Virus record (IMG/VR): IMGVR_UViG_3300036851_000152
Coordinates: 1 to 42,474 of that record
Direction: 5' to 3' (one strand)
Length of the DNA: 42,474 nucleotides
DNA from: a virus
The translations under genes were made by a program, and so were the position numbers. The stretch's first letter is position 1, and each line of letters opens with the position of its first letter. Shown here piece after piece: positions 15,747 to 41,975 of the stretch. Below the pieces are notes generated by a model, which did not search any database, was not told the origin of the DNA, and saw only the letters and a program-made list of their open reading frames with translations.

Positions 15747-16144
15747 GGCACCGTCACCGCGTTCAGCCAAGCCTTCAGTTCCGGCTCGGTGCGGAACCCG
15801 AAACCGTCCGAGATCATCCGCGAGGCGAAGTCAGATCCGTCAAGCAAACGGATGTCGCCGACGGTCCGTTCGAGCGACATTTGCGCTGATCCCCATTGCG
15901 CTCCCTTTGTCAGCGCTTTCGAGTGGAGGACGACTACCGTGCCGGCCGGGGCGAGTTCTTCCGCGTGGGCTTTCGCTTCCGGCCCACCGCGTTCGTTCAT
16001 CTCGGCGCACCAGAGGTTGATGATCCGGATGCCTTCGCGGTCGGTGAAGTCGCGCCAGCCTTTGTCGATGTAGCCTTCGCAGGTGTCGCCGTCCTTCCAG
16101 CGGATGATCCGCATGGGGACGGCCCAGACATAACCGGGGATCAT
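15743..16144 (-). CDS. Staphylococcal-nuclease-like (TNase homologue) protein
   Basis: 133 residues. RIIRWKDGDTCEGYID is the first beta-hairpin of the SNase fold; GIRIINLWCAEMNERGGPEA and SLERTVGDIRLLDGSDFA supply the residues around the active site (E and R of the R-E-R triad positions). A nuclease inside the tail module is unusual. ATG 16144 is used; M11 is an alternative start. Confidence 0.75.
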   Translation of the reverse strand: MIPGYVWAVPMRIIRWKDGDTCEGYIDKGWRDFTDREGIRIINLWCAEMNERGGPEAKAHAEELAPAGTVVVLHSKALTKGAQWGSAQMSLERTVGDIRLLDGSDFASRMISDGFGFRTEPELKAWLNAVTVP

Positions 16145-16209
16145 TAGAAATGGTCGCCCTTCCCCTTAGCCTGGCGCCTTCCGGCCTTGGGATCATCGGG
16201 CGATAGAGG

Positions 16210-16280
16210 TAGCGGGCCCGGGAGTCGAACCCGGTTCTGAGGCTTATGAGGCCGCCGACTTACCGTCTGTCTCGCCCGCG
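16210..16280 (-). tRNA. tRNA-Met-like gene (anticodon CAT)
   Basis: On the minus strand the RNA has acceptor bases CGCGGGC/GCCCGCT, a D arm GAC...GTC with GG in the loop, an anticodon loop CTCATAA and a T arm CCGGG-TTCGACT-CCCGG. Oddities: C1-U72 mismatch, G instead of U at position 8, one C-U mismatch in the anticodon stem, and a tail ACCT rather than CCA. It may be a degenerate elongator tRNA-Met or a tRNA-Ile(CAT). It lies alone between a membrane gene and the nuclease homologue. Confidence 0.7.
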
Positions 16281-16289
16281 CCGGCAACG

Positions 16290-16526
16290 TTACCACGCCT
16301 CGAAGACAAGGTCGCCCATCAGGAACACGTAGAGGACGGTCAGGATGCCTCCCAGGGCCGCCAGGAGCCCAATTCTGCCTTTGTGGAGCCTCGTCCAGTA
16401 GGTGGAGATGGTGAATACGTCGTCGGCTTTGTCGCGTAGGGCGGCGAGTTCGTAGAAGACGATGAGGGCGATGCCGCCGAAGAGGATGCTGAGGATGATC
16501 GCGAGGGCGAGGATGGCGCCGGTCAT
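16290..16526 (-). CDS. Two-helix membrane protein in tail module
   Basis: 78 residues with N-terminal helix ILALAIILSILFGGIALIVF and C-terminal helix GLLAALGGILTVLYVFLMGD separated by a basic loop. ATG overlaps the previous stop. A membrane protein between tail-completion genes is unusual; it could act at infection or lysogeny. Confidence 0.65.
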   Translation of the reverse strand: MTGAILALAIILSILFGGIALIVFYELAALRDKADDVFTISTYWTRLHKGRIGLLAALGGILTVLYVFLMGDLVFEAW

Positions 16527-16891
16527 CGGATCCTGACCCGCCGACGCACGAACTTCTCAAACTGCTCGCCCATCTCGTCCTTGAATGTCTTTCGCATCTT
16601 GCGGTGAGCGGGGCGCATGAACGGAGTCGCGGCGATGTAGACGGTCCCGTACTCGAGGTAGCGGTAATACCACTTCTCCGAGGGGATAAACACCGCCCCC
16701 GACTGGAACCCGCGTTTCTCCTGTTGCACCACGCCAGGATCGAGATCGTGTTGTGAGCGTTCCATCCGCCGTTTCGCCTCTTGCTCGCCGTCGTCAAGGG
16801 CTTTGTCTCTGGCATGGCGAACGGTGTCCCAGGCTGCTTCCTTGACGGCCGGGAAACGGGACTCCAGCTTGATCCGGGGTTTGGGTGGCAT
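16523..16891 (-). CDS. HK97 gp10-like tail completion protein
   Basis: 122 residues from ATG 16891 (TGATG junction with the previous gene). Pattern: SQHDLDPGVVQQEKRGF, SEKWYYRYLEYGT and TPFMRPAHRKMRKTFKDEM. The YR-x-LE-YGT...PFMRPA motif is characteristic of gp10-like head-tail joining proteins. It lies between connector and tail terminator, as expected. Confidence 0.8.
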   Translation of the reverse strand: MPPKPRIKLESRFPAVKEAAWDTVRHARDKALDDGEQEAKRRMERSQHDLDPGVVQQEKRGFQSGAVFIPSEKWYYRYLEYGTVYIAATPFMRPAHRKMRKTFKDEMGEQFEKFVRRRVRIR

Positions 16892-17070: not shown

Positions 17071-18051
17071 TCAGGCGATCAATGAGTCCTGGAGTTTCCG
17101 GGCGACAGCTAATGCAGTCGGCGGAAGGGAAAGTAGTTGAGGACGGCCCGCGAACACGATTACATTCTGTCCTTCTCCTGATGGGACCGGGGATAGGTCT
17201 TGGCGGTAATGTTCAACATCGCGATCGATTACTTGGGCCACCGCATCTAGAACCGCCTTCCTCACACGCCCTGGAATCGAGGGGAATCCCCAGGTGCCCG
17301 CCACCGATACAACGTAATCGCTCCTGATCTTCATTACGTCGCGGGTGAATCTCAGCCGTCGGATCGGCTCCCAGCTTCGGCGGTTCCTGGGTAGAGAAAT
17401 GATGTCCCCGGAGGCGACGGTCTCTTGGACATTCAGGTCATGATCAAGGATCTGGACCTGCGTGAATGACGTGAGGTCACCGACGTGGATGGTTCGGCCG
17501 CGGACGGCTGAGGCGTCAGCGTCGAAATAGCGGGTTTGCGGGTTTGTCCCGACGACTTTGATCTCCCGTTCAGACTCCTCCTGGAAAAGATCCGAGACAT
17601 CATTGATCGTCCGCACGAGCTCAAGTTCGTCGCCGACCTCAATGTTCTGTTGTTGCAGCCAATCTTTGGTTTCTTGGAGGCCGACTAAGGCCCAGGCTTC
17701 GAGTCCGGCGTTGGCTTGGAATTCGGAGGGGAGGACTTTGTAGACGAAGTCGGGTGGGGCGGCTTCGGCGGTGCCTGTTCCTTCGGCGCGAAAGATCCAG
17801 TAGCCGGATTTGGTGAGGGAGACGCCAGGGTTGAGTTTGAAGACGCCGGCTGAGACGCGTGCGAGCGGCTGTGAGCTTGTGGTGAGTGATGCGGGACTAG
17901 ACGCGGTTGTGATCGTCGACTCGACGCCGTCTGTGTCTTGTTGTTTGACGACGATCTGGGTTGGGTCCGTGGCGACTGGCGGGGTGCCGACCGTCCATGT
18001 CCATTGCGGGACGGCGCGGTCGCCGACGTTGACGGTCTCTACGTTCGCCAC
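17071..18051 (-). CDS. Head-tail connector protein with N-terminal beta domain
   Basis: 326 residues. The first ~110 residues are beta-rich (TQIVVKQQDTDGVEST, GVFKLNPGVSLTKSGYWIF) and resemble an added Ig-like or adhesin-like domain. From ~115, AWALVGLQETKDWLQQQNI, VRTINDVSDLFQEESEREI and a long C-terminal helical part match gp6/Ad1-type connectors. The GTG at 18051 follows a late start element by 5 bases. Confidence 0.75.
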   Translation of the reverse strand: MANVETVNVGDRAVPQWTWTVGTPPVATDPTQIVVKQQDTDGVESTITTASSPASLTTSSQPLARVSAGVFKLNPGVSLTKSGYWIFRAEGTGTAEAAPPDFVYKVLPSEFQANAGLEAWALVGLQETKDWLQQQNIEVGDELELVRTINDVSDLFQEESEREIKVVGTNPQTRYFDADASAVRGRTIHVGDLTSFTQVQILDHDLNVQETVASGDIISLPRNRRSWEPIRRLRFTRDVMKIRSDYVVSVAGTWGFPSIPGRVRKAVLDAVAQVIDRDVEHYRQDLSPVPSGEGQNVIVFAGRPQLLSLPPTALAVARKLQDSLIA

Positions 18052-18056
18052 ACGGT

Positions 18057-18068
18057 GGTTTTCGGCTA
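18057..18068 (-). promoter_or_regulatory. Late start-associated element, copy 3 (connector)
   Basis: TAGCCGAAAACC five bases before GTG 18051. Its TAG is the stop codon of the repeat-protein gene. Confidence 0.85.
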
Positions 18069-20174
18069 GTTGACCGTGTCGGAGACGGCCACGAAAGCCT
18101 CTGAGAGGCTTTCGACGGCGACGGTGGCGCCTGATGCGTCTGCTGCCTCGGCGGTGGCTGTGGAGGCGTCAGAGACGCTGAGAGAGGCTGGTACGACGAG
18201 GACGCCGGCGATCACGAGCGGCGCTGGCGCTGAGCCTGTTGCGAGAGCGGCCGATGGGAAGATGACGAACGCGAGTTGCGGCGCCTGGGTTGCTCCGGTA
18301 GCTGTGGCAGGGGCGGGAAGAATGCCGACAATCGCGATTGCTTGTGCTGCTCCTGTTGCCGTTGCTGGCGTTGTCGTTGATTGAACCTGGATCTGGGGAT
18401 TCGCGGTCAGCCCGAGCGCGGTCGAGATAGGGGCGGTTATTCCGACGAGCGATGTGGGGGCTGGTGCTATCCCAAGCGCGGTGGCGGCGGAGGCTTGGAC
18501 GGTTGAGCCTGAGCCGCTGATGACGGTAGGTGCGGGCGTGATTCCTTGTGCGATGGCTGGGCTGATGGGGACGACGGCGGCGAGGGTGGGTCCTGGAATG
18601 ATGCCGAGTGCCGACGCGATCGAGACGGGAACGGTAACGTCGGCGGTGACGGCGGGGGCTTGACCGAATGCGGCGGCGACGCTCGCGGGTGAGGCGATGG
18701 CTGGAGTTGGGGCTGGGGCGATCCCGAGCGCAACGGCGGCCGCGGGTGTGACCGTGACCGGGCCGGCGATGACGGTGGGCGCCGGGGTGATCCCTAGGGC
18801 AGTCGCTACTCCAGTCGCGACGGTGATTGCTGGCGTCGACGCAGGGACGAGTCCGAGCGCCGCCGCCGTCGAACTCGCAACGGCCACCTGTTTCACAGGC
18901 GCTGGGCTCGAGCCGAGCCCGATCGCAGCGCTGGCAGGGACAGTCACGTCGCCTGCCGCGGGGGGGCCGATTACGACCCAGACGTATTCGCGGGCGACTG
19001 TGTCCGCATCGGTGGTTGAGACGCGAAGGTTGTTGCCGCTGAACGACAGGTCGGCTTCGGACACCAAGGTCGGCGTAACCGGCGTGTAGTAGCGGAGCCC
19101 TTTCGTGCTGTGGAACAGCGTGTGCGTGTTCATGTCGGCTGCGGAGTCATCGTCGAGGACGCCGACCATGCAATCGATTGTCCCGTCAGTCATCCCGATC
19201 AGGAACTGGTAGCCATCCGCGTCCGCAGCGCCAAGCGTGGTGCTGGCGGCAATGTTGCTGCCGAACACAAGCGCGCCCGCAGGCGCGAACCCAGCCGCAT
19301 GGTCGGTATCGCCGATGGTCGTGCGGATCGTCCCGACCCCCATCGCGACTTGCAGGTCGGGGTCTTGAATGAACAGGTAGACGCCGCCCATACCGTTCGG
19401 GTTCAGGTCGGGCTTAACGATTTGGATGCCGTCGGCGGGCCAGTTCGCCTGGATGTCCAGATCGGCCTCATAGGTGGCCGCATTGTTTGATGAGCCGAGC
19501 ATGAACCGCTGCTTCTGCCAACGGGCAGACGCCGCCTGGACCTGCGCGTCACGCATCGCGAAGAGCGAGCATTGCCTGATCGTGTCCGAAACGGCGACGC
19601 CCAATGGCATGTGTGCGTTCGTCAGCGACGAGTCCGAGAACCCGTTCAGCTGCGCGCCACCGTGGGTTCCGAGCACGAGGTCCGGTTGGCCCCAGCCGGC
19701 CGGGGCGGTGATCGTCTCCGGCGAGGTTGTCGTGTGCGTCTGCGAGACGACACGCGCCTTGGCGACCGAGAACGCCATGTAGATGATCTTGATTGCCGAC
19801 GCCGGAGCAACCGTGAACGTGAGCGTGAACTGCTCGTTCTGCATGTCGGTCACGTCCACTTCCATCTCTGAAGTGGTGGTCGTGCCGTCTACGTTCTGTC
19901 TCAGCGTCGCGGTCGTGAAGACTCCGTTAGCGGTTTGCGAGGCGGCGGTGGCGTCGTCCTGGTGGATCAGCTGGCCGCCCTGCTGAATCGCGGCGGCGTC
20001 GCGAGAGGCGAAGCCGAACGAGAAGCGGGCATGGCCTGCCACGAAGCCATCAGCGGTGTTGTATGAGGCTGCGAGCATTAGCGCGCGTAGCGTGAACCCT
20101 GCGGGCAGCGTTTCGGTGACGGTGGCACCATCGGTGGTTGGGGCGGTGATGATCCCGACCTTGCAGCCGGGCAT
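18066..20174 (-). CDS. Large virion-associated protein with C-terminal Ala/Pro/Thr repeats
   Basis: 702 residues. The first ~410 form a mixed beta domain with two similar halves (ARFSFGFASRDAAAIQ and VYLFIQDPDLQVAMGVG regions), consistent with a phage structural or adhesin domain. From ~411 to the end there are about twelve degenerate ~20-24 residue units built around VPASAAxALGIxPAPT. The repeats are rich in Ala, Pro, Thr and Ser. A glycosyltransferase gene lies about 3 kb upstream in the same operon. It is likely a virion surface or decoration protein; glycosylation is hypothesis. Confidence 0.65.
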   Translation of the reverse strand: MPGCKVGIITAPTTDGATVTETLPAGFTLRALMLAASYNTADGFVAGHARFSFGFASRDAAAIQQGGQLIHQDDATAASQTANGVFTTATLRQNVDGTTTTSEMEVDVTDMQNEQFTLTFTVAPASAIKIIYMAFSVAKARVVSQTHTTTSPETITAPAGWGQPDLVLGTHGGAQLNGFSDSSLTNAHMPLGVAVSDTIRQCSLFAMRDAQVQAASARWQKQRFMLGSSNNAATYEADLDIQANWPADGIQIVKPDLNPNGMGGVYLFIQDPDLQVAMGVGTIRTTIGDTDHAAGFAPAGALVFGSNIAASTTLGAADADGYQFLIGMTDGTIDCMVGVLDDDSAADMNTHTLFHSTKGLRYYTPVTPTLVSEADLSFSGNNLRVSTTDADTVAREYVWVVIGPPAAGDVTVPASAAIGLGSSPAPVKQVAVASSTAAALGLVPASTPAITVATGVATALGITPAPTVIAGPVTVTPAAAVALGIAPAPTPAIASPASVAAAFGQAPAVTADVTVPVSIASALGIIPGPTLAAVVPISPAIAQGITPAPTVISGSGSTVQASAATALGIAPAPTSLVGITAPISTALGLTANPQIQVQSTTTPATATGAAQAIAIVGILPAPATATGATQAPQLAFVIFPSAALATGSAPAPLVIAGVLVVPASLSVSDASTATAEAADASGATVAVESLSEAFVAVSDTVN
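18069..18944 (-). repeat. DNA encoding degenerate ALG-PAP repeats
   Basis: About twelve imperfect units in the 3' part of the 702-residue protein, with recurring A-L-G-I-x-P-A-P-T and V-P-A-S-A-A words. Codon use differs between units, so the repeat is old and kept at protein level. Confidence 0.7.
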
Positions 20175-20177
20175 GGG

Positions 20178-20462
20178 TTAGACCCCGAAGCGTGTCTTTA
20201 TTTCAGCGACCGTGTCGTAAGGGGCAGCACCCGCCTCGGCGGCTATCAAGACCTCGTGGATTTCCGGGGCGGTCACAAGGTTCTTGCTCATCCGCGTAAC
20301 CAGCGTCTCCAGCTCGCCCTGCGCCGTGACATCAAGCGCAAAATGGTCGATGATCTGTTGGCTCGTGACCTTGTTCCGGCGCCGATCGGCCATCATCCCG
20401 TAGAACTCATGCACCGGAATCTTCGGTTCTTCAGTGCCGAGCAGGCGTTCGTACAGGCCCAT
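20178..20462 (-). CDS. Small helical structural-module protein
   Basis: 94 residues with IPVHEFYGMMADRRRNKVTS and a second helix AQGELETLVTRMSKNLVTAP. ATG 20462 lies just after the preceding stop. The family is not recognised; similar short proteins accompany phage decoration genes. Confidence 0.6.
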   Translation of the reverse strand: MGLYERLLGTEEPKIPVHEFYGMMADRRRNKVTSQQIIDHFALDVTAQGELETLVTRMSKNLVTAPEIHEVLIAAEAGAAPYDTVAEIKTRFGV

Positions 20463-20466
20463 TAGC

Positions 20467-20952
20467 TCAGACGGGCTGCGGGTAGAGGGTGCCGAACGCG
20501 CCTTCCATGATCGTTGCCGAATCTGCTCCTGTTATCTCTGTGGCAAAACGCAGCCTGAGCTGACCAGAGGTCGACCCGTTCTTCAATACTCCGAACACGC
20601 GCGCCACATAAACAGTGTTCGCCGCCACAACACCGGAACTCAGATGGGCATCGTCACTTGCAGTACCGGCACCGACGGAGACTGAGCCAGTGCCATCGGC
20701 ACTCTGCGGTATCTCTACCCGATAGGCGATATAGGCTGGAGCAACCAGCGTCGGGCAGGACACGGCAAGCGCGATTCCCCTAATGGCATTTGAGGACTTA
20801 CAGGGGACAACGAAATCGAAGCTGTATTCCATGTTCGCCTCGACGTCGAACCAGAGATCGTCCACGTCGCTGAGCGTCGCCGATGTTGTGGACTGGTCGG
20901 CGGTCTTGTGCTTCGTCTGTGCCGTCCCACCCTCGAGAGTCTCAGGCGACAT
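20467..20952 (-). CDS. Beta-rich virion protein
   Basis: 161 residues. ATG 20952 follows AGGAGGAGGAG, the strongest ribosome site of the late region. Strands such as ANMEYSFDFVVPCKSS, IAYRVEIPQSADGTG and TVYVARVFGVLKNGS suggest a jelly-roll of the kind seen in phage head or tail appendages. Confidence 0.65.
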   Translation of the reverse strand: MSPETLEGGTAQTKHKTADQSTTSATLSDVDDLWFDVEANMEYSFDFVVPCKSSNAIRGIALAVSCPTLVAPAYIAYRVEIPQSADGTGSVSVGAGTASDDAHLSSGVVAANTVYVARVFGVLKNGSTSGQLRLRFATEITGADSATIMEGAFGTLYPQPV

Positions 20953-21032
20953 CAGATGCTCCTCCTCCTGCTAGTTGCCATTAGGCAATCCACTGTACCC
21001 GGAGGCCCAGAAACTCGACTAAACTCCCCGCC

Positions 21033-21084
21033 GGCCCGCTTCTTTGAAGAGACACACTCTCTCTTCTCCCGACGGAAGCGGGCC
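21033..21084 (-). terminator. Two-stem hairpin in late operon
   Basis: GGCCCGCTTC (21033-21042) pairs with GAAGCGGGCC (21075-21084); inside, GAAGAGA pairs with TCTCTTC. It lies between the decoration-like gene and the beta-rich gene, in the only sizeable non-coding gap of the late operon. No long T run follows, so it may be a partial terminator or RNA-processing site. Confidence 0.5.
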
Positions 21085-21088
21085 ATCC

Positions 21089-21517
21089 TTACGTCACGTC
21101 GATTTTCGCCAAACCGGTCGCGTCCCACTGGACCGTGAAGTTCGCCGCCGTCACCGACTGCGCCCCCAGGTCGTAATAGGTCATCAGCGGATCAGTCGTC
21201 GACGCCCCGGCGGTGTTCTCCCACACGACCGCATACCTGATCCCGGAAATCGTCGCGGTCGTCCAGACCGCGTCTGCCGCGTCGAACCGCCACTCGTCCG
21301 TGCCGGCATCGTAGGTGGAGGTTTTCGTGCCGAGCGTGACCCCGTTCGCGGTGTAGTTCGTGCCGGTGACTTCGTTGGTGGCGTCGTTGAAGAAATCGTC
21401 GGTGTCCTGCGCTGGCACGTAGGTCACGGTGTGCAGCGAGCACTGCATCGTCCCGGTCAACACATCCGTCTTCGTTGCGTCGAATTGGCGGTCGATGAAG
21501 AGGCCGTACCAGGGCAT
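21089..21517 (-). CDS. Phage head/tail decoration-type protein
   Basis: 142 residues. YVPAQDTDDFFNDATNEVTG then TNYTANGVTL, WRFDAADAVWTTATISG and FTVQWDATGLAKI are the conserved words of a widespread phage structural protein usually encoded near capsid genes. Start overlaps the previous stop (TAATG). Probably a capsid decoration or minor head protein. Confidence 0.75.
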   Translation of the reverse strand: MPWYGLFIDRQFDATKTDVLTGTMQCSLHTVTYVPAQDTDDFFNDATNEVTGTNYTANGVTLGTKTSTYDAGTDEWRFDAADAVWTTATISGIRYAVVWENTAGASTTDPLMTYYDLGAQSVTAANFTVQWDATGLAKIDVT

Positions 21518-21849
21518 TAGTCTTTCGCCTCCTCGATCTTGTCGATCTTCAACTCGGCGTCGTCATAGCGGCCCTGGTCGCGCTTCCGCCGCTCAATCTC
21601 CGCTTTCACCCACGCTTCGGTCAGGGCTTTGCCGCCGAAGCGAGGATCGATGGCGAGCAACCCTGGCCGGCCGGTTTCCTTGGCTTCCTCGAGCCGGGCG
21701 AACGTCAACGGGAAGCGTTCATGGCGGCGATAGTGGGCGCGTTCAGCAAGCAGCCTTGCCTGTTCGCGGTCCTTCGCATAGAGGGACATGCGGACGCGTC
21801 CCTCTTTGCCTTTGAACCAGACGTGGAATCGCTTCTCGCCCTGCGCCAT
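21517..21849 (-). CDS. Basic helical protein of structural module
   Basis: 110 residues: FHVWFKGKEGRVRMSLYAKD then AKDREQARLLAERAHYRRHE and a C-terminal charged helix. ATG 21849 lies 6 bases after a late start element. Function unknown. Confidence 0.6.
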   Translation of the reverse strand: MAQGEKRFHVWFKGKEGRVRMSLYAKDREQARLLAERAHYRRHERFPLTFARLEEAKETGRPGLLAIDPRFGGKALTEAWVKAEIERRKRDQGRYDDAELKIDKIEEAKD

Positions 21850-21855
21850 CAGAGG

Positions 21856-21867
21856 GGTTTTCGGCTA
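21856..21867 (-). promoter_or_regulatory. Late start-associated element, copy 4
   Basis: TAGCCGAAAACC six bases before ATG 21849; the upstream gene's stop is a few bases away. Confidence 0.85.
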
Positions 21868-21871
21868 GCTA

Positions 21872-22912
21872 CTACTCGACCGCCGCCGCGCAATTTGCGT
21901 CGTCGCGGTCACTGAGCCCGTCTTCGTCGTTGTCGATACCGTCGTAACACTGCGGCTCCGGCGGTGGCGGCGGTGGCGGAGGCGGCGGAGGTGGTGGTGG
22001 TGGTGTTCCATTAGCGACTGTGAACGGGATCACCAGCGAACCCCACAATTGCCCCGTGAACTGCCCTGACGAATACGCCCTCAACATCAAGACGTGCGGC
22101 CCATCCGCGAGCCTGGTTGTGTCGATCGCGAGACGCCCGGTAAACGCCCCGGCCTGATCCAGCACGATCATGCCTGGACTCTCCGGGACAGCATGAAAGT
22201 GTGGATCAACCGAGGCGAACGACCGATCAACCCTCTCGTCGCCGGCACCCTGGAGAACCCTCACAGGCGGCGTCCAAAGCCCCGAGACGGCCTGGAACGG
22301 GAACTCCGACTGAGAGGTAAAGCGCCCGTTGATGTAGCCCTTAACGCTTCCTGAAGCCGTCTCATACCAGCCTCGCCCCTCGGGTGTACTTGTGGCCTGT
22401 GTCAGGTTCGTCGAGCAGGAACGAACACAGACCTGCCAGCCGTTCGTCGCCAGGCTCTTCGGCCGCGACACGATCCCAGGACGGATCTCCGAATGAATAC
22501 GGAGTTCATGCATCCCGGTCGCAAGGTCAGGGACCGTGATCGAGTTGACGAATGTGCAATCAGCCGTATCGCAGACCTGTCTCGGCTCCCTTGTAACGAG
22601 CGTGTTCGATGCATCCTGAACACGCACGAACCTGAGCATCCGATTCCCGTCCTGCGCGTTGTGGAGCTTCGAGACGACGTCCAGCTGAAACGATCCCTGG
22701 ACGATCTGGTAAAGCGGGAAGCACGCCCCGGAATGCACATGCTCAGCCTGTCCGTAGCTGTCGGTTTCGTTGTCGGACCAGCCTGACTGCGACTCGAGAA
22801 AGACGCGTGCTTCCGGGTAGCCGGTACAGCTGAACGGGTCAGGGTTTCCGAGAGCCTGCCCCGCAATCAGAAACGGAAACAGCACAGCGACCAGGACTAG
22901 CGCCGGTCTCAT
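21872..22912 (-). CDS. Secreted protein with polyproline spacer and calcium-repeat-like tail
   Basis: 346 residues. N-terminal signal peptide (RPALVLVAVLFPFLIAGQAL, cleavage likely after Gly-22). A ~280-residue beta-rich ectodomain with several Cys pairs (CSCTG-like, CDTADCTF, CVRSCS) follows. A run of about 15 Pro leads to CYDGIDNDEDGLSDRDDANC, a thrombospondin-type-3-like DxDxDG calcium motif. No such protein is expected in a capsid/tail operon; it may be exported and alter the host surface, or be virion-associated. Confidence 0.7.
   Translation of the reverse strand: MRPALVLVAVLFPFLIAGQALGNPDPFSCTGYPEARVFLESQSGWSDNETDSYGQAEHVHSGACFPLYQIVQGSFQLDVVSKLHNAQDGNRMLRFVRVQDASNTLVTREPRQVCDTADCTFVNSITVPDLATGMHELRIHSEIRPGIVSRPKSLATNGWQVCVRSCSTNLTQATSTPEGRGWYETASGSVKGYINGRFTSQSEFPFQAVSGLWTPPVRVLQGAGDERVDRSFASVDPHFHAVPESPGMIVLDQAGAFTGRLAIDTTRLADGPHVLMLRAYSSGQFTGQLWGSLVIPFTVANGTPPPPPPPPPPPPPPPEPQCYDGIDNDEDGLSDRDDANCAAAVE
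21957..22011 (-). repeat. Proline-codon microsatellite
   Basis: A run of CCN codons encoding about 15 consecutive Pro in the secreted protein. On the plus strand it appears as GGN repeats. Such runs are prone to length change. Confidence 0.75.
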
Positions 22913-22918
22913 CCATGT

Positions 22919-22930
22919 GCTTTTCGGCTA
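22919..22930 (-). promoter_or_regulatory. Late start-associated element, copy 5 (variant)
   Basis: TAGCCGAAAAGC, one base different from the other copies, six bases before ATG 22912. Its TAG is the stop codon of the glycosyltransferase gene. Confidence 0.75.
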
Positions 22931-23626
22931 GCTGGGCGTCAAGCTATTCCCCAGCCGGCGCATCAACACCCGCTGGTCACCGTTCTCGCCGCCCAGGTCC
23001 ATGTCGACGCCCCAGCCCTCCCCTTCGATCCAGCAGGGGTACACGCAGGTAAGCGCGATATGGCCGAGCAGCACCGAGGGGTCACACCAGATCGTGAACC
23101 CATGCTCGCGCAGCTTGCGGCAAAACATCAGATCCTCGTTCTGCTTCCCATACGTCTCGAACCACGGGTCGCCGATCTCGTCCAGAACGTGTTTGCGGAT
23201 CAGCATTCCGGCGGTACCGGCGGCATGAACCTCGAACAAGCCCTGCTCGGGGATCTGCGCCAGCTGGTGGACATCGCCGTTCGAACTCCCATAGAGAACA
23301 GGCTCGAAACCGGGCGTTCGTTTCAGACAGTGAGGCACGACCACGTCGACCTTGTGCGCCTCCAATCTCCGGATGATGTCCGGTTCCCAGATGTGGTCGT
23401 CGGCGGTCTGCCAAAGCCAGTCGCCTTTCGTGCGGCGGCAGGCCTCGTTGAGGTTACCGGTGACGTCGACACCGCCGAACCAGCCCAACCGAATCTCATC
23501 GTTGCGCATATAAGCGAGCATCTGTTGCATCGACTTGACCGACTCGCCAAACCTGGGCGCCGGGTCGCCAGTGAAGAACGCGACCGTCCCGAAGAGTTTC
23601 TGGCGCGGAACCTGCTTCGTCGTCAC
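22928..23626 (-). CDS. Glycosyltransferase (GT-A fold, family 2-like)
   Basis: 232 residues from GTG 23626, which overlaps the previous stop. KLFGTVAFFTGDPAPRFGES, WLWQTADDHIWEPDII (acidic DDH in place of DxD) and an EDLMFCRKLREHGFTIWCDP segment are the landmarks of a GT-A glycosyltransferase: nucleotide-sugar loop, metal-binding acid pair and base region. It lies between capsid-proximal genes and the secreted and repeat proteins, so a virion protein is a plausible acceptor. Sugar donor unknown. Confidence 0.8.
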   Translation of the reverse strand: MTTKQVPRQKLFGTVAFFTGDPAPRFGESVKSMQQMLAYMRNDEIRLGWFGGVDVTGNLNEACRRTKGDWLWQTADDHIWEPDIIRRLEAHKVDVVVPHCLKRTPGFEPVLYGSSNGDVHQLAQIPEQGLFEVHAAGTAGMLIRKHVLDEIGDPWFETYGKQNEDLMFCRKLREHGFTIWCDPSVLLGHIALTCVYPCWIEGEGWGVDMDLGGENGDQRVLMRRLGNSLTPS

Positions 23627-23841
23627 CGCGGATCGATCGCCCGCAGGCGGACCGTCGTCTCTGTCTCCTCGATTCCCACGCGCGCGCCGCAACATGGGCA
23701 AGCATCGTTCCTAATCCCGTCAAAGACATGGAAGCGATCGAACATCCGCTGGGCCTCCACCACCGTCAAAGCACGGCGCAAGCTCTCGTTCTCAAACCTC
23801 AGCGCTTCCTCTTCGGAAGCCCAGACTGGGACGCTGCTCAC
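23623..23841 (-). CDS. Coiled-coil zinc-ribbon protein
   Basis: 72 residues. Helical N-terminus (ASEEEALRFENESLRRALTV) then CPCCGARVGIEE. GTG overlaps the previous stop. Co-translated with the glycosyltransferase. Function unknown. Confidence 0.6.
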   Translation of the reverse strand: MSSVPVWASEEEALRFENESLRRALTVVEAQRMFDRFHVFDGIRNDACPCCGARVGIEETETTVRLRAIDPR

Positions 23842-24176
23842 CTTCCCACGGCCGCGTCAAAAGCGACCACGGTGCTATGCGCCGTAAACGGAAGGGTGGC
23901 ATGAGTGTTACGGACACGCAAACGACACCAACGCGCCACGGACGTTATCGACGTATACGAACCAGCAGTCGTGGTGATCGTGTCGGTCTGAAGAGTGGAG
24001 GTGCCGCCGTCTCTCGACCAGTCGACCTCGAAAACGTAGGTGCCTCCTGTATTCGTTCGCAGCACATCAAGCGGCGGCGCCTTCTTCTTGATATCGATCC
24101 ACCCTGACTGATCTTGACCGAGTGCAGCCACAAGCGCCGTGCTGCTCCAGATGTCAACCATTCTCCGGCGCGGCAT
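23838..24176 (-). CDS. Structural-module beta protein
   Basis: 112 residues; RRRMVDIWSSTALVAALGQD then FEVDWSRDGGTSTLQTD and WCRLRVRNTHATLPFTAHST. Strand-rich, like small head-completion or decoration proteins. The start follows the previous TAA directly (TAAATG). Confidence 0.6.
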   Translation of the reverse strand: MPRRRMVDIWSSTALVAALGQDQSGWIDIKKKAPPLDVLRTNTGGTYVFEVDWSRDGGTSTLQTDTITTTAGSYTSITSVARWCRLRVRNTHATLPFTAHSTVVAFDAAVGR

Positions 24177-24763: not shown

Positions 24764-26272
24764 TTATCCGGTCCTGAGAACCCGGAACGCCGCCGCCGAA
24801 GTCACGCCAGCGCCGTTGCGGAACCAGGCGTACAAACCGCGTTGCCCGGTTGGGCGGTTGTTGGTGACATCGAAGAGATGCGGGATCACTTCGATGTTGA
24901 GTCCGATCCGGTCGACGATCACGTAGTAACGGAAGTCACCCATGATCACGATCTCCGACCCGGTCGTCAGCACCGCGTCCATCGCCGACGATTCATAGGC
25001 CGGGTAACCGAGCACCGTCACCCCATAGCTGCCTGGGGTGGGAACCTGGTTTTGCAGCCCCTGTTGCAGCTGCACACCTTGGTTCCAGACCGCCGCCCCG
25101 CCAGCGGTGTCGAAGTGCCGGACCTTCTGCGCGATCGCCCGGTTCATGACCATGCTTGCCATCGGCCTGAACCTCGGCGGCAGCGCCGCCTCGAGCGTGT
25201 CCAGGTCGGCGTAAGCAAACGAGGCTGTCCCTGAGGCGGTCGTGATGTTCGTCGCCCCGGTGATGACGCCCTGCGGCTCATTCGTGCCCGAACCCAACGC
25301 GAACTTCGTCGCTTCGAGTTCGTCCTTGCCGTCCTGCAACAGCCGCCCCATCTCCGCCTGAAGGCTTGGCCAGTCCATCCCGATCTCAATCGAGAAAGGA
25401 ATGAACGCCTGCGCCTTCTCGGTCGAGATCGTCGGCTGCGCCAACGTCGGCGCGTTATCCGAAGCCGCCGTCGCCTCAGCCGCATACGCGACCGTGACGC
25501 CACCGGAGGAAACGCCACGCCATTCATCGACGGTGATCTGCTCGACCCTGGCGATCGCCCGGAATGGATTCACAGCCAGGTTCGAGGTCGGGATGATCGT
25601 CGGATCGAGTTCGAACGGGACAGCGAACCCGCCTGCCGAGCCGGTCAGCGACAACGCTCGCTCCAGCATCTGTGACTGCGAGAGCAAACGCGACTCGTCG
25701 GTCGAGAGGGAATTGCCGAACACGTACTTGCCGACCGCCCGCTTGTACGCTGGCGAGCCGGTTAGGACGATCCGCCGCGAAAGCAGACCGTCCTCGGTGT
25801 CCTTCTCCTCGACAAGCGCGGATACGTACTCCTGCGATGCCTCGCGAGTTGTCCGCATCGCCCGGCTCGAGGGGAACTTGGCATCATCGATCACCCGTCG
25901 TGCCCGCTCACGCAGTTCGTTGCCTTCAACTGAGGGATCACCGAAGTCACGGCGGATGTTGGACAGGTCGTAGATGTTCTCGACCGGCTTGGTGAACTGC
26001 ACGTCGATCCGTTCGACGTTCTCGGGCTGGTCGGCGATCGCCTTCAGCCGCTCGGTGCGGACGTGCAGCTCGCGGATCGACTCGTCAATGTCATCGATCT
26101 CGGTGTTGAGCCGATTCCATTCCTCTTTGGTTTCAGCCGAGAACCGTTTGCCGGCATGTTCTGCGTCGATCTCGTTCAGGCGTTCCTTGCGCTTGGCGCG
26201 TTCGTCCTGAAGCTCCTCGAGACCGTGCCTGCTGAACTCGTCGCCCTCGGCCGCTGTGTTCACAGTTGCCAC
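24764..26272 (-). CDS. Major capsid protein, HK97 fold with N-terminal delta domain
   Basis: 502 residues. Residues 1-115 are a charged coiled-coil delta domain (LEELQDERAKRKERLNEIDA) that acts as internal scaffold and is normally removed by the protease. The rest carries HK97-fold landmarks: GSAGGFAVPFELDPTI, AAEATAASDNAPTLAQPTIS, IPFSIEIGMDWPSLQAEMGR, FALGSGTNEPQGVITG and IVIMGDFRYYVIVDRIG. GTG start with AAGGAGGAC; it overlaps the protease gene's end by 13 bases. Confidence 0.92.
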   Translation of the reverse strand: MATVNTAAEGDEFSRHGLEELQDERAKRKERLNEIDAEHAGKRFSAETKEEWNRLNTEIDDIDESIRELHVRTERLKAIADQPENVERIDVQFTKPVENIYDLSNIRRDFGDPSVEGNELRERARRVIDDAKFPSSRAMRTTREASQEYVSALVEEKDTEDGLLSRRIVLTGSPAYKRAVGKYVFGNSLSTDESRLLSQSQMLERALSLTGSAGGFAVPFELDPTIIPTSNLAVNPFRAIARVEQITVDEWRGVSSGGVTVAYAAEATAASDNAPTLAQPTISTEKAQAFIPFSIEIGMDWPSLQAEMGRLLQDGKDELEATKFALGSGTNEPQGVITGATNITTASGTASFAYADLDTLEAALPPRFRPMASMVMNRAIAQKVRHFDTAGGAAVWNQGVQLQQGLQNQVPTPGSYGVTVLGYPAYESSAMDAVLTTGSEIVIMGDFRYYVIVDRIGLNIEVIPHLFDVTNNRPTGQRGLYAWFRNGAGVTSAAAFRVLRTG

Positions 26273-28613: not shown

Positions 28614-28614
28614 G

Positions 28615-36005: not shown

Positions 36006-36210
36006 GAGAATGCCTCCCTCGATTGTCGGTTCCTAAGCCGACAACAACTCTAGCGGAACACCGGGGAGGAGATACGGCGGCCGGACGCTCACGCGGCTTA
36101 GGAACCACGGGAGGCGCGACCCGGCCGCCGCGGGTGGGCATGTTGACAGATTCGCCGGCTACGCGGTAGAGGTCGCAGCCGTCGGGTCCTCCGGGGATCC
36201 AGCCGGTCAC
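35995..36210 (-). CDS. Hypothetical protein, 71 aa
   Basis: GTG 36210 overlaps the cytosine methyltransferase stop. Gly/Pro/Arg-rich (PTRGGRVAPPVVPKPRERPA) with few predicted structures. Low complexity makes function unclear. Confidence 0.5.
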   Translation of the reverse strand: MTGWIPGGPDGCDLYRVAGESVNMPTRGGRVAPPVVPKPRERPAAVSPPRCSARVVVGLGTDNRGRHSHAE

Positions 36211-36854
36211 GCGGTCGCCTGCGCTTTCAGGTGCTGGATCAGCTGGTGGCCGATCAGTTCGGTGAAATCAGGATGGACTGCCTGGGTCGCCGATTTGCGG
36301 TCGGCCCAGGGCATCCCCATCGCCTCAAGAACTTGTGCTTCGTTGTCGGCCTTGCGGCCTCGTACCTGGCCCTTGCTCGAGCCTTCACCGTAGACACCGA
36401 CTGGTTGGCCTTGCTGTCCGTGGGCGCACGGGGGGACGATCAACGGCCAGTTCGTCTCGAAGAGCCTATGCCGGCGGATCTTCAATCCGAGGCTCGAACC
36501 GCAGATCGTGACCGGAGCGCGTAGTGGGGCTCCGGGAACGTTCTCGATTACATAGGGGAGTCCGGTTGCTTCAAGGAGCCGGCGCGTGTGCCCGATCAAG
36601 TCACGATGCCGCGTCTTGTCGCGGGTGGCGACGCTGTACGCCTGGCAAGGCGGACTCGCGTGGATAGCATCGAAACCTGCTGCCCAGCCTGATTCCCAGC
36701 GTTCCGGGAGCGAGAAGACGTCGGCTTGGACGAAGTCGAAGGGGTATAGCGGTTGTATGGTGCAGTCGACTCCGACGATGGTGAACCCGGCGCGTGCGTA
36801 GCCGACCGCACTCCCGCCCGCGCCAGCAAAGAGGTCAAGCATTCGAGGTTTCAC
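36207..36854 (-). CDS. DNA (cytosine-5) methyltransferase
   Basis: 215 residues from GTG 36854 (GTGA overlap). Motif I LDLFAGAGGSA near residues 6-16, motif IV SPPCQ with catalytic Cys-70, motif VI ENVPG near 104-108, motif VIII-like KIRRHRLFET, and C-terminal ELIGHQLIQHL. It is short with a compact target-recognition region, as in phage Dcm-like enzymes. No partner restriction enzyme is evident, so protection of phage DNA is likely. Confidence 0.92.
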   Translation of the reverse strand: MKPRMLDLFAGAGGSAVGYARAGFTIVGVDCTIQPLYPFDFVQADVFSLPERWESGWAAGFDAIHASPPCQAYSVATRDKTRHRDLIGHTRRLLEATGLPYVIENVPGAPLRAPVTICGSSLGLKIRRHRLFETNWPLIVPPCAHGQQGQPVGVYGEGSSKGQVRGRKADNEAQVLEAMGMPWADRKSATQAVHPDFTELIGHQLIQHLKAQATA

Positions 36855-37189
36855 GCTGCTCCTTCGTCGTCTAGCTCGAGCGTGGCCGGGAAGATCACGC
36901 CGGCTCGTTTGGCGATCCGCACGAATTCGGCGAAGTCGAGTGTGGCGGTGGGCCTCCTGTCGTTGTGGCCGGCGACGACGACGAGCCAGGGGAGCCCTTC
37001 TTGTTTTGATTGTTGTCTTGCTTGGAGCACCCATTTGGCGAGCACGGGTGGGCCTGGGCGGGATGATCTCTTCACTTGCACCGCGAACCGGACATCGATG
37101 CAGTCGCTCATGGATCGTCCGGTTGGGCCTCTGCGTTCTCCGCCGAGTGCTCGGCAGACGCGGGATTCAAGGCGCTTCCAGGCGGTCAT
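36851..37189 (-). CDS. PD-(D/E)xK-like nuclease
   Basis: 112 residues. SRVCRALGGERRGPTGRSMS, DCIDVRFAVQVKRSSRPGPP and LPWLVVVAGHNDRRPTATLD follow the order of small resolvase-type nucleases: a Glu, an Asp and the Q/E-V-K motif. Here QVK replaces the common EVK. It could be a Holliday-junction resolvase or nicking enzyme. Start overlaps the previous stop. Confidence 0.65.
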   Translation of the reverse strand: MTAWKRLESRVCRALGGERRGPTGRSMSDCIDVRFAVQVKRSSRPGPPVLAKWVLQARQQSKQEGLPWLVVVAGHNDRRPTATLDFAEFVRIAKRAGVIFPATLELDDEGAA

Positions 37190-39105: not shown

Positions 39106-39623
39106 CAGCGACACACCCATTCATTGCCGCGAAGGTGAGCGTGCATATAGCTGGCGGCAAGCGCTTGAGCGAACGGGTCCCAAATCGAGTGTCTCCCGAA
39201 TGGTGTCGATCGCCAAGTGCTCGGTAGAAACTGGAACAACCCTGACGCGCCGCTCGAACGATTCCGCGCGAATGGCCACAAATGGCTCTCACATTCGGCC
39301 TTCCGCAGCAGCGTCGAATACGACTGCCCATAGGCAGTCGCGGCGACAGCGATGATCCGATGAACGGATGGATGATGCGCGACGGCTCTCTGGAGTTCCA
39401 GCTTCTTCGCTCGCAACCTGCGCTCGTTCCGCTCCGCCCGGTTCACCTGCCGCCTCACCACCCGCTCGAGTCGGTCGGCGTACAAGCGGGCGCGACGCAG
39501 GTCATGCTCTACAACCGCCAGCTGCCGCACCTGAACGGCCGGCTGGTCGTCGCCTGGGGTGGCTGCAATAGCAGTCACCGCAGAGGCTGTGAGCGCGGCG
39601 GCGAGAGCAAACACGCGGATCAC
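39105..39623 (-). CDS. Secreted lytic-transglycosylase-like protein
   Basis: 172 residues, GTG 39623. A signal peptide (RVFALAAALTASAVTAIAA) leads to a basic coiled coil (ERVVRRQVNRAERNERRLRA) and an SLT-like domain: ATAYGQSYSTLLRKAECESH with the catalytic Glu in AECESH, then SSGASGLFQFLPSTWRST. It is encoded with early genes, not the lysis genes, so it may be exported by the lysogen or early in infection. Overlaps the methyltransferase stop. Confidence 0.8.
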   Translation of the reverse strand: MIRVFALAAALTASAVTAIAATPGDDQPAVQVRQLAVVEHDLRRARLYADRLERVVRRQVNRAERNERRLRAKKLELQRAVAHHPSVHRIIAVAATAYGQSYSTLLRKAECESHLWPFARNRSSGASGLFQFLPSTWRSTPFGRHSIWDPFAQALAASYMHAHLRGNEWVCR

Positions 39624-40198
39624 GAAACAAGTCCAAGGTCGACGTGCTGGAATGCTTCATCGCCCCAGGTATCCCAGCCAAGGCGTTGCGTCCGGGCGAA
39701 TAGCTCAAGACGCGGCCCATCCGTGATCTGCTCGATTAGTTCATAGAACCCAGGTGGCTTCGCGCTGTGGACCTTCTGTGGTACTCCAGCGGGGCCATAT
39801 TCATAGACCTGCTTCCAGAACCAAACACCGAGATAGTCCTCATGCTCGATCCTCGGATTACCGCGCTTGGCGACAAGGACCGGTTCGTGGTCATTCCCGA
39901 ACGGCGGCGCTCCTGTGCCTGCATTCGGCAGACCCCAGATGATCTCGCCGCAAGGTGAAAAGTCCCAGGCTCGCGCCACCTTGTAGGCCGCGCCGTTGCG
40001 GAAGCTACGCCGCGTCGACCACAGGAACAGCGCACAGTCGGCATCCATGACTGACGGGACATGGACGGACATGATCTGCCAGTAACTCATTGGCTCGTAG
40101 GGAAGCTCAGTTACGTTCTTGCGGCGGCCTCCCTTGCCGATACTCGTGGAGACATCCGGCCACGGCGGATCGGCGATGATCGTCCGGTACTTCTTCAT
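39620..40198 (-). CDS. MT-A70-family N6-adenine DNA methyltransferase
   Basis: 192 residues. The DPPW catalytic motif is at residues 10-13 (YRTIIADPPWPD); LFLWSTRRSFRNGAAYKVA and EPVLVAKRGNPRI follow, and the C-terminus is LELFARTQRLGWDTWGDEA. Such phage enzymes methylate GATC-like or other adenine sites. No restriction partner is seen. Confidence 0.92.
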   Translation of the reverse strand: MKKYRTIIADPPWPDVSTSIGKGGRRKNVTELPYEPMSYWQIMSVHVPSVMDADCALFLWSTRRSFRNGAAYKVARAWDFSPCGEIIWGLPNAGTGAPPFGNDHEPVLVAKRGNPRIEHEDYLGVWFWKQVYEYGPAGVPQKVHSAKPPGFYELIEQITDGPRLELFARTQRLGWDTWGDEAFQHVDLGLVS

Positions 40199-40417: not shown

Positions 40418-40771
40418 TCAACCAAGCCGCTCAGCCACCTTCTTGTAAAGGCGTTCCCCACCACCAGCGAACGTCCACGCAGGCCACTGGCCCATGTCCA
40501 CTGCCGGCATCGCGATGTCTTCTCGGAGCCAGTCGATGAAGTCACGCAAGCCAGCAGTCGCCGGGTCGAACCATTCTCCACGCAGTCGTCCACCCGCGAA
40601 GTGCTTATGCAACAGGCGCTCCAGCTTCGGCGCACCGGGGACATAGGTCAGAAGCCAAAGCACCTCAGCATTCGCGTGCTGCATCAGCGTGAGGCGACGA
40701 GGCACGTCCTGGGCGATACCGATCTTGATAGGTCCATCGTTCCCGGCTTGAATGAAGTAGACGAACTTCAT
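40418..40771 (-). CDS. GIY-YIG nuclease-like protein (T5orf172/MUG113 type)
   Basis: 117 residues. FVYFIQAGNDGPIKIGIAQD, VPRRLTLMQHANAEVLWLL, ERLLHKHFAGGRLRGEWFDP follow the MUG113/T5orf172 subgroup of GIY-YIG domains (VYFI..G..KIGIA...RL..LQ...P...E..LH..F...R..GEWF). Sits between integrase and attP with a 4-base overlap. May act on DNA; role in integration unknown. Confidence 0.8.
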   Translation of the reverse strand: MKFVYFIQAGNDGPIKIGIAQDVPRRLTLMQHANAEVLWLLTYVPGAPKLERLLHKHFAGGRLRGEWFDPATAGLRDFIDWLREDIAMPAVDMGQWPAWTFAGGGERLYKKVAERLG

Positions 40772-41787
40772 GCCGACTCGCGATCTCGCTCCATCTTCTC
40801 AATCGCCTCACGCGCGTCATCGACTTGAAGCCATCCATACTCATCGACGGTCGTGCGGATCGACGTGTGCCCCATGATCTTTTGAGCCCGCTCCGCCCCT
40901 GACCGGCGGGTGACTTCGTTGCCAAGCGTGTGCCGCGCTGTATGCCCGGAGCGGTAGGAGACTCGCGCCCGCTTCAGACAGCCTCTCCACCAGTACCAAT
41001 AGGCCGAGTGCGATAGCTCACGTTCGGGCTTGACCCAAGTGATCCCGTAGGGGCCGACGCCGAATGGGTAGAGCAGATGGTCGGTCGGCTCCGGGGTGCG
41101 CTCGAGCCGCGGCAGTGGCGTCTGCATGAAGAACCGGAACGCCTTGACGAGGCGGCCGTCGGCGGCGATCGGGACGACGCGCGAACGGTCGCCTTTGCCG
41201 TGGCGGACGATCAGCCAGTTCTGTACCGGGTCGATGTCTTCGACGCAGAGTGCGAGGAGCTCGGCGCGGCGGATGCCGGCGTCGAGGAGGATCGTGATGC
41301 AGAGCCGGTCGCGATATTCGATTGCCTTGCCGCGGATCGCCTCGGGGCCATTCGAGATCAGCCGCGCCTGCTCGGCATCGCTGAACAGGTGGCGGACCTT
41401 GCGCGGCTGCTTCTTCGGGTAGGGGATCAGGTCGGCGACGTTGCGGTCGATTCGTTCCTCGCGGTAGAGCCATTTGAAGAACGAGCGGATTGCGCCCATC
41501 ACTTTGCGCCTTGAGGCGGGCGGGTAGGTGTCGCGGATCTGCCGCAGGTCGTCTTTCTCGAGGTCGCCGGCTGTCTTGTGCGGGAAGGTGACGGCGATCC
41601 GGGCGAGGATGCGTTCATAGGCGTCGGCGGTCTCGGGGGAGCCGCCGCGTTCGTTGAGGAGCGCCCGGAGGTAATCGGCGATGTCTGGGCCGAGCGGGGT
41701 GCTGAGGTAGCGCCTGTCGAGCATGGGCTCGGCGAGAATCTCACTCCACTCGCGGGCGGTCAAAAGCTGCTGGGCGAATCCACTCAC
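40768..41787 (-). CDS. int: Tyrosine integrase
   Basis: 339 residues from GTG 41787 (GTGA overlap). N-terminal core-binding domain (SPETADAYERILARIAVTF), then the catalytic set: Arg-174 in GIRRAELLAL, Lys-198 in HGKGD, HxxR (282-285) in SGHTARH, His-307 in GHTSIR, and nucleophile Tyr-317 in TVDEYGWL. All are present, so the enzyme should be active. Works on attP at 40368-40409; no excisionase was recognised. Confidence 0.93.
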   Translation of the reverse strand: MSGFAQQLLTAREWSEILAEPMLDRRYLSTPLGPDIADYLRALLNERGGSPETADAYERILARIAVTFPHKTAGDLEKDDLRQIRDTYPPASRRKVMGAIRSFFKWLYREERIDRNVADLIPYPKKQPRKVRHLFSDAEQARLISNGPEAIRGKAIEYRDRLCITILLDAGIRRAELLALCVEDIDPVQNWLIVRHGKGDRSRVVPIAADGRLVKAFRFFMQTPLPRLERTPEPTDHLLYPFGVGPYGITWVKPERELSHSAYWYWWRGCLKRARVSYRSGHTARHTLGNEVTRRSGAERAQKIMGHTSIRTTVDEYGWLQVDDAREAIEKMERDRESA

Positions 41788-41975
41788 GGCTCGATCCTTC
41801 GCATGACGAGATCCCACTGGCCGTCCTCGCGCTGCTCGAACCGAAACTGGACGGTAGGCGACCATTCGTCGGGTGGCTTGTAGCCCCATTCTTCGAGGAA
41901 GATGTCGGAGACCTTGAACGTGAGCTCCCACACGTCTACGGGGCCGACGCTGGAAGCGAACTGACGCTCACCCAT
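41784..41975 (-). CDS. Small protein coupled to integrase
   Basis: 63 residues: a beta-rich FASSVGPVDVWELTFKVSD and VQFRFEQREDGQWDLVMRR. Start overlaps the previous stop by 8 bases. Could be a recombination directionality factor by position, but the sequence is not a known Xis. Confidence 0.55.
   Translation of the reverse strand: MGERQFASSVGPVDVWELTFKVSDIFLEEWGYKPPDEWSPTVQFRFEQREDGQWDLVMRRIEP

Follow-up and report, generated by a model that had tools for sequence, protein, structure and literature searches.

A glycosyltransferase linked to the capsid gene as the candidate core of a virion-glycosylation cassette in uncultivated tailed phages

What would a phage do with a glycosyltransferase whose gene lies just behind that of its major capsid protein? 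The question is raised by the IMG/VR virus record IMGVR_UViG_3300036851_000152, the whole of which (42474 bases) was analysed here and is called the window. In the window the structural genes lie on the minus strand in the order of terminase, portal, protease (assigned by eye), capsid, an accessory block, a putative connector and the tail genes, with the accessory block encoding the glycosyltransferase P0003, a protein with a signal-like N-terminus, P0002, and a repeat protein, P0001. The original prediction joined the three into a phage coat-glycosylation system, with the repeat protein as mucin-like acceptor. We propose, with a rough probability of 0.6, that P0003 forms the core of a capsid-linked cassette for glycosylating the virion, the probable target being the capsid or a head decoration protein. 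Thus, the virion-glycosylating enzyme is retained from the original prediction, since its linkage to the capsid gene, seen in many phages and with several capsid families, makes it the best reading, while the repeat protein as its mucin-like acceptor is given up.

The enzyme and its place behind the capsid gene

The two genes on which the argument turns are as follows.

24764..26272, minus strand: major capsid protein P0010, 502 residues, HK97-type (PHROG_10 major head protein, 1.5e-43; tblastn matches in 150 phage records).
22928..23626, minus strand: P0003, GT-A glycosyltransferase (Pfam, PHROG_1574, alignment and model m07c44048e346; the open reading frame, ORF, is open to TTG 23701).

Judged from its family match and its model, P0003 is most likely a soluble, metal-dependent GT-A glycosyltransferase, as had been predicted. 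It matches the Pfam family Glyco_tranf_2_3 at 1.1e-07, above the family cut-off, and its AlphaFold2 model (pLDDT 87) has a GT-A fold, matching GT-A enzymes of the PDB at E about 5e-09. The nearest solved folds are those of LH3, STIV A197, COLGALT1 and GalNAc-T2 (GalNAc-T enzymes), which are mostly protein-modifying, a similarity that is no proof of the acceptor; viral glycosyltransferases in BFVD are matched as well, and the best PDB sequence match is again STIV A197, at E 0.0023. The likely start is the GTG at 23626, the end of the block as originally drawn, because the relatives begin at the same position in the alignment. Among 44 enzyme sequences, Asp102, Gly162, Asp190 and His214 are invariant and Glu189 is present in at least 90%, so that the metal-binding DxD/DxH and the acidic ED motif of GT-A family-2-like enzymes are conserved; 42 of 44 family members match PHROG_1574. 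Among 50,697 phage records searched with tblastn, P0003 matches only one and the enzyme of locus L103 only two.

The linkage was surveyed from both genes. From the capsid side, the best 80 of 97 loci were taken, picked solely by a related capsid protein, and enzymes were recognised with a profile seeded with P0003 and the L006 enzyme, which converged on 61 ORFs with strong scores. Genes were called by longest-ORF heuristics, and the family counts exclude five near-duplicate loci as well as ORFs with more than 24% Arg+Pro or outside set lengths. Of the 44 capsid-related loci with 4 kb or more of downstream sequence (no near-duplicates dropped), 35 have the enzyme no further than 4 kb from the capsid gene; the same holds for 45 of the 59 with at least 2 kb, and the enzyme is present in 28 of 35 deduplicated loci (six dropped) with at least 6 kb. 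Sorted by capsid identity (at least 2 kb), the classes have the enzyme in 7/7, 7/10, 5/15 and 26/27 loci, the last being the most distant class, and absences are frequent in the class of 40-47% identity. Pairs of capsid and enzyme genes are also present in Streptomyces and Microbacterium contigs, and five genome contigs with the enzyme have the capsid gene alongside in three cases (L126-L128), L124 and L125 giving no capsid match; L127 and L128 are prophage-like elements of Streptomyces speibonae and S. chumphonensis. In the phage MW202711 the enzyme lies one gene behind the annotated capsid gene.

From the enzyme side, a scan that used the enzyme alignment only gave 261 relatives, with 79 loci retained, 74 of them profile-confirmed. 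The window's capsid type lies upstream of the enzyme in 19 of the 71 loci with at least 2 kb upstream, counted with a 20% Arg+Pro ORF filter. Sixty of the 79 loci are without this capsid type; 45 of them were examined, 15 being dropped by eye as near-duplicates or for having no upstream ORF, and the one or two nearest large upstream ORFs of the 45, with the capsid proteins of L007 and L041, made up 82 scanned proteins. Among these the capsid families are Phage_capsid_4 (13), Phage_capsid (9), Mu gpT (8), SU10 MCP (1) and Phage_cap_E (1), where one protein may count in two families. By our own reading of BLAST clusters, a capsid protein is among the nearest upstream ORFs in at least 22 of the 45 loci, namely 12 of L006 type, 8 of gpT type and two, L138 and L175; one L006-type locus is L006 itself, already known, and L078, L052 and L006 are present in both locus sets. 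With several capsid families upstream of it, the enzyme follows the capsid gene across capsid families.

As a separate observation, 16 related proteins, mostly slightly longer than 300 residues, lie directly upstream of the glycosyltransferase (as at L163:5094-6032, L192:5000-5962 and L206:695-1696), and in several loci such a protein sits between the glycosyltransferase and a Mu gpT-type capsid gene.

Apart from the enzyme, the genes in the slot behind the capsid gene vary widely between loci and often include further sugar genes. In 179 slot proteins of 39 loci, a set excluding the enzyme family and the repeat proteins, the Pfam counts are NAD epimerases 7, Glyco_trans_1_2 5, CmcI 5, NTP_transf_3 4, GT2 3, TylF 1, GT group 1 1 and Hexapep 1, besides several methyltransferases. 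Labelled by eye, there are also a second glycosyltransferase-like gene in the sister contig of the window, IMGVR_UViG_3300036851_000104, and an epimerase and an acetyltransferase in L005. For 129 proteins encoded upstream of the capsid gene in 22 loci, the 25 of 28 families listed include those of portal, protease and terminase, and none of the 25 is a family of sugar transfer or of sugar-nucleotide metabolism.

The distances between enzymes are correlated with those between capsids at r 0.95 (n 42; 0 of 2000 permutations as high), with 0.52 in the 19 near and 0.91 in the 23 distant loci. Judged by these distances, enzyme and head genes are passed on together as one set.

What the enzyme may modify

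From the predicted fold, the conserved active site, the capsid linkage and the extra sugar genes, we infer the activity of P0003, its acceptor and sugar, and the presence of glycans on the virions, in the following way. P0003 would be made together with the head proteins and would act in the cytoplasm during assembly, moving a sugar from a host nucleotide sugar (sometimes modified by the phage in relatives) to a virion protein, so that a sugar-coated particle would result. The additional glycosyltransferases, epimerases, nucleotidyltransferase, methyltransferases and acetyltransferase in the slot of the relatives would extend or modify this sugar. P0001 would be a separate part, a particle-surface protein having a conserved N-domain and a fast-changing repeat shaft. 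Candidate acceptors besides the capsid are found among the other genes between the capsid gene and the tail genes, which are listed here.

23838..24176, minus strand: P0009, 112 residues, small protein between the capsid and glycosyltransferase genes (ORF; 65% identical protein in L072).
21872..22912, minus strand: P0002, predicted exported protein with polyproline linker and DxDxDG tail (relative in the sister contig only).
21517..21849, minus strand: P0008, 110 residues (ORF; start 8 nucleotides behind a TAGCCGAAAA site).
21089..21517, minus strand: P0007, 142 residues, PHROG_644 (7.8e-20; relatives in L051 and L064).
20467..20952, minus strand: P0006, 161 residues (70% identical in the sister contig).
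20178..20462, minus strand: P0005, 94 residues (84% identical in the sister contig).
18066..20174, minus strand: P0001, 702 residues, conserved N-domain (1-403) and repeat tail (N-domain 92% identical in the sister contig, tail replaced).
18210..18887, minus strand: repeat part of P0001, ten clear 20-residue units, residues 430-655 (self-match tests).
17071..18051, minus strand: P0004, 326 residues, putative head-tail connector by position (relatives at 36-86% in L002, L043, L045, L048, L071 and L074).

The block had been placed between capsid and connector; the capsid is borne out by its PHROG_10 match, and the connector stands by position only, P0004 having no strong family match in the family search.

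A number of points weigh against glycosylation of the virion by P0003. Firstly, 9 of the 44 loci are without the enzyme near the capsid gene, although three of these nine have it about 8 kb downstream; L084, an enzyme-negative locus, holds several other sugar-type genes (assigned by eye). The enzyme is also missing from the three cultivated phages with the same capsid type that were examined, Brujita, Eyre and REQ1; the annotated connector directly follows the capsid gene in Brujita and Eyre, and short hypothetical genes do so in REQ1. Secondly, the correlation is not confined to the capsid, since the enzyme also tracks the portal (in the portal subset, n 21, capsid-enzyme 0.79, capsid-portal 0.63 and enzyme-portal 0.76). 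Thirdly, between the window and the sister contig the identity is 54% for the capsid, 76% for the enzyme and 93% for the portal; these values suggest that the capsid gene was exchanged in the window while the enzyme was retained, and they speak against an enzyme adapted to a single capsid sequence. A fixed pairing of capsid and enzyme types is thus unsupported inside the window lineage. Fourthly, in the virions of the mycobacteriophages Che8 (gp110), Corndog (gp38) and Myrna, phage enzymes glycosylate the C-termini of capsid and tail-tube subunits, according to PMC12619734 and PMC12363180, whereas the capsid C-termini here (13 loci) have no Ser/Thr-rich tail, and therefore a capsid loop or a small neighbour (P0006, P0007 or P0009) is an equally possible acceptor. 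Finally, Che8 gp108, gp109 and gp110 are not members of the enzyme family, with 12.1, -2.1 and 10.6 bits against the profile and an hhalign probability of at most 20%.

Among the other readings, it is conceivable but unlikely that the enzyme alters the host envelope, in lysogenic conversion or exclusion of other phages, as in serotype-converting phages. The window phage is probably temperate, given an integrase gene at 40768-41931, and the additional sugar genes of the relatives would also fit. However, conversion genes are not known to be fixed behind the capsid gene, and serotype-converting glycosyltransferases are membrane-bound and have a flippase as neighbour. The present enzyme keeps its place behind the capsid gene in several capsid families, P0003 has no membrane segment by hydropathy (KD19 maximum 1.40), and no flippase is among the slot families listed (25 of 29 and 21 of 21).

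Still less credit is given to the idea that the enzyme glycosylates P0001 as a mucin-like fibre. The 702-residue protein does have the predicted architecture of about twelve repeats, with ten clear 20-residue units plus two degenerate ones (about 404-429 and 597-615), a period-20 self-match of 0.272 against a maximum of 0.235 in 500 shuffles, and z 13.6 in a second test. The repeats hold some Thr and Ser, a repeat protein shares the block with the enzyme in the window, the sister contig and L006, and a repeat protein is found in the slot region of 18 of the 35 deduplicated loci, with periods mostly of 18-23 residues or double that and often with an N-terminal domain. The composition, however, is not that of a mucin. 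Ser plus Thr makes up 17-20% of the P0001 repeats against 18% of the N-domain; Pro, at 0.13-0.14 in these repeats, ranges from 0 to 14% across the repeat proteins of different phages, with Ser plus Thr at 13-37%; and the repeat sequences turn over completely between phages, the small residues and the period being common to all. On these three grounds the mucin reading of the repeats was rejected. Nor is the association of enzyme and repeats significant, with repeats in 15 of 28 enzyme-positive loci (13 being without) and 3 of 7 enzyme-negative ones (Fisher p 0.69, a small sample).

The three genes, which had been expected to co-occur elsewhere, were found together only in the sister contig, with 90% identity for P0002 and 92% for the P0001 N-domain, and with the repeat tail replaced by one of ETDxAQ type. 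There (L002:10001-12354) the repeat part has an ORF of its own, overlapping that of the N-domain by ATGA, whereas a single ORF encodes both in the window. Since close relatives differ in repeat family, the repeat shaft is a swappable module. By their sequences the repeats are more like a fibre shaft or spacer than a mucin, and from the gene position P0001 is plausibly a head or neck surface protein, either fibre or decoration. Beyond the sister contig the N-domain has one weak match, in L056 (25%, E 5e-04). P0001, its repeats, P0019 and P0020 gave no match in annotated phages, a weak negative with the BLAST low-complexity filter on, and the AlphaFold2 model of P0001 from two sequences (pLDDT 29) is uninformative.

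It is quite improbable that the slot is a tolerant site for cargo insertion and the enzyme a frequent passenger in it. The high variability of the other slot genes, and their absence from the cultivated relatives examined, would be expected in that case, but the enzyme alone is common to most loci, diverges with capsid and portal, and recurs behind other capsid families. Systems that hypermodify DNA have modified-pyrimidine synthesis genes in the genome. The least probable reading, that the enzyme glycosylates hypermodified phage DNA, could appeal to the DNA-modifying phage glycosyltransferases already known (Pyle et al. 2024, cited in PMC12619734) and to the two DNA methyltransferases of the window, but no hydroxymethyl-pyrimidine synthesis gene is found among the 20 window proteins scanned with Pfam, and the linkage of the enzyme is to the capsid gene.

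The exported protein and other features of the window

P0002 has the predicted features, a hydrophobic signal-like N-terminus (KD19 2.26 at residue 4), a proline run and the tail CYDGIDNDEDGLSDRDDANC. Its assignment to a virion-surface set is not upheld, because relatives beyond the sister contig were not found and a signal peptide would lead it out of the cytoplasm, where virions assemble. Judged from its sequence, P0002 is probably exported and unrelated to the particle. A crude signal-peptide pattern occurs in 3 of the 179 slot proteins, these being the P0002 relative and two doubtful cases.

The nearest capsid relatives among annotated phages (tblastn) have mainly streptococci and actinobacteria as hosts. 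Elsewhere in the window there are an IS1595-type transposase gene inside the phage contig (32316-33359, minus strand), the two DNA methyltransferases, of C5-cytosine and MT-A70 type (36207-37034 and 39620-40198, minus strand), and, between tail and head genes, a predicted tRNA-Met gene (16208-16276, minus strand) overlapping the ORF 16144-16815, so that either one may be spurious.

Note also that the motif CTAGCCGAAAACC has eight copies in the window, on the minus strand and in a single orientation, seven exact and one ending in GC. The sites begin at 28614, 27255, 27078, 22931, 21868, 18069, 14955 and 7167, and seven of the eight lie 3-8 nucleotides ahead of an ATG, GTG or TTG. In the sister contig there are eight copies of the core within the L003 stretch, and at one site the flanks have diverged with motif and spacing kept. 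The motif is similar to the start-associated sequences described in cluster K mycobacteriophages (PMC3203893) but lacks a Shine-Dalgarno core; alternatively, it may be a stoperator-like repressor site.

Known systems and significance

The arrangement is like the mycobacteriophage system (Freeman et al. 2023) in having phage-encoded glycosyltransferases in actinobacterial phages; in that system the glycans sit on capsid and tail-tube subunits (PMC12619734 and PMC12363180). By contrast with the enzyme behind the capsid gene, the Che8 glycosyltransferase genes gp108-110 lie near the right genome end. By analogy, the P0003 system may work as mycobacteriophage virion glycosylation does, with a different enzyme family and a different gene arrangement.

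STIV is an archaeal virus with a different capsid fold. Its protein A197, which is essential, has been proposed to glycosylate the capsid protein B345, which is glycosylated (PMC10551542). A197 and P0003 are both viral, minimal GT-A enzymes, A197 being among the top fold matches and the closest PDB sequence match, with 18% identity over the aligned part. For PHROG_1574, of unassigned function in PHROGs, the capsid linkage found here suggests one. Repeat-built decoration proteins of the head surface are known in T4 Hoc and SPP1 gp12; P0001 differs from these in its repeats, which are of about 20 residues and are swapped between close relatives.

Glycosylation of tailed-phage virions has been shown in a few mycobacteriophages, as far as PMC12619734 and PMC12363180 report, and searches of the open-licence PMC literature gave no description of a glycosyltransferase family next to the capsid gene in uncultivated phages, which does not establish its absence from print. 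We tentatively suggest, as a possibility held with less confidence than the proposal for P0003 itself, that many uncultivated tailed phages with varied capsid families carry a glyco-island behind the capsid gene, built around a PHROG_1574-like enzyme, whose add-on genes would give a phage-specific, possibly methylated, particle glycan, that is, a capsid sugar serotype that would be passed on together with the head genes and that is absent from the cultivated relatives examined.

If the proposal is true, the spread of this capsid-linked enzyme family over several types of capsid would make sugar-coated heads common among uncultivated phages, and its presence directly behind the capsid gene would be a simple sequence rule for choosing phages to test. 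Sugars on the particle could affect its stability, particle-particle contacts, attachment to surfaces and recognition by antibodies.

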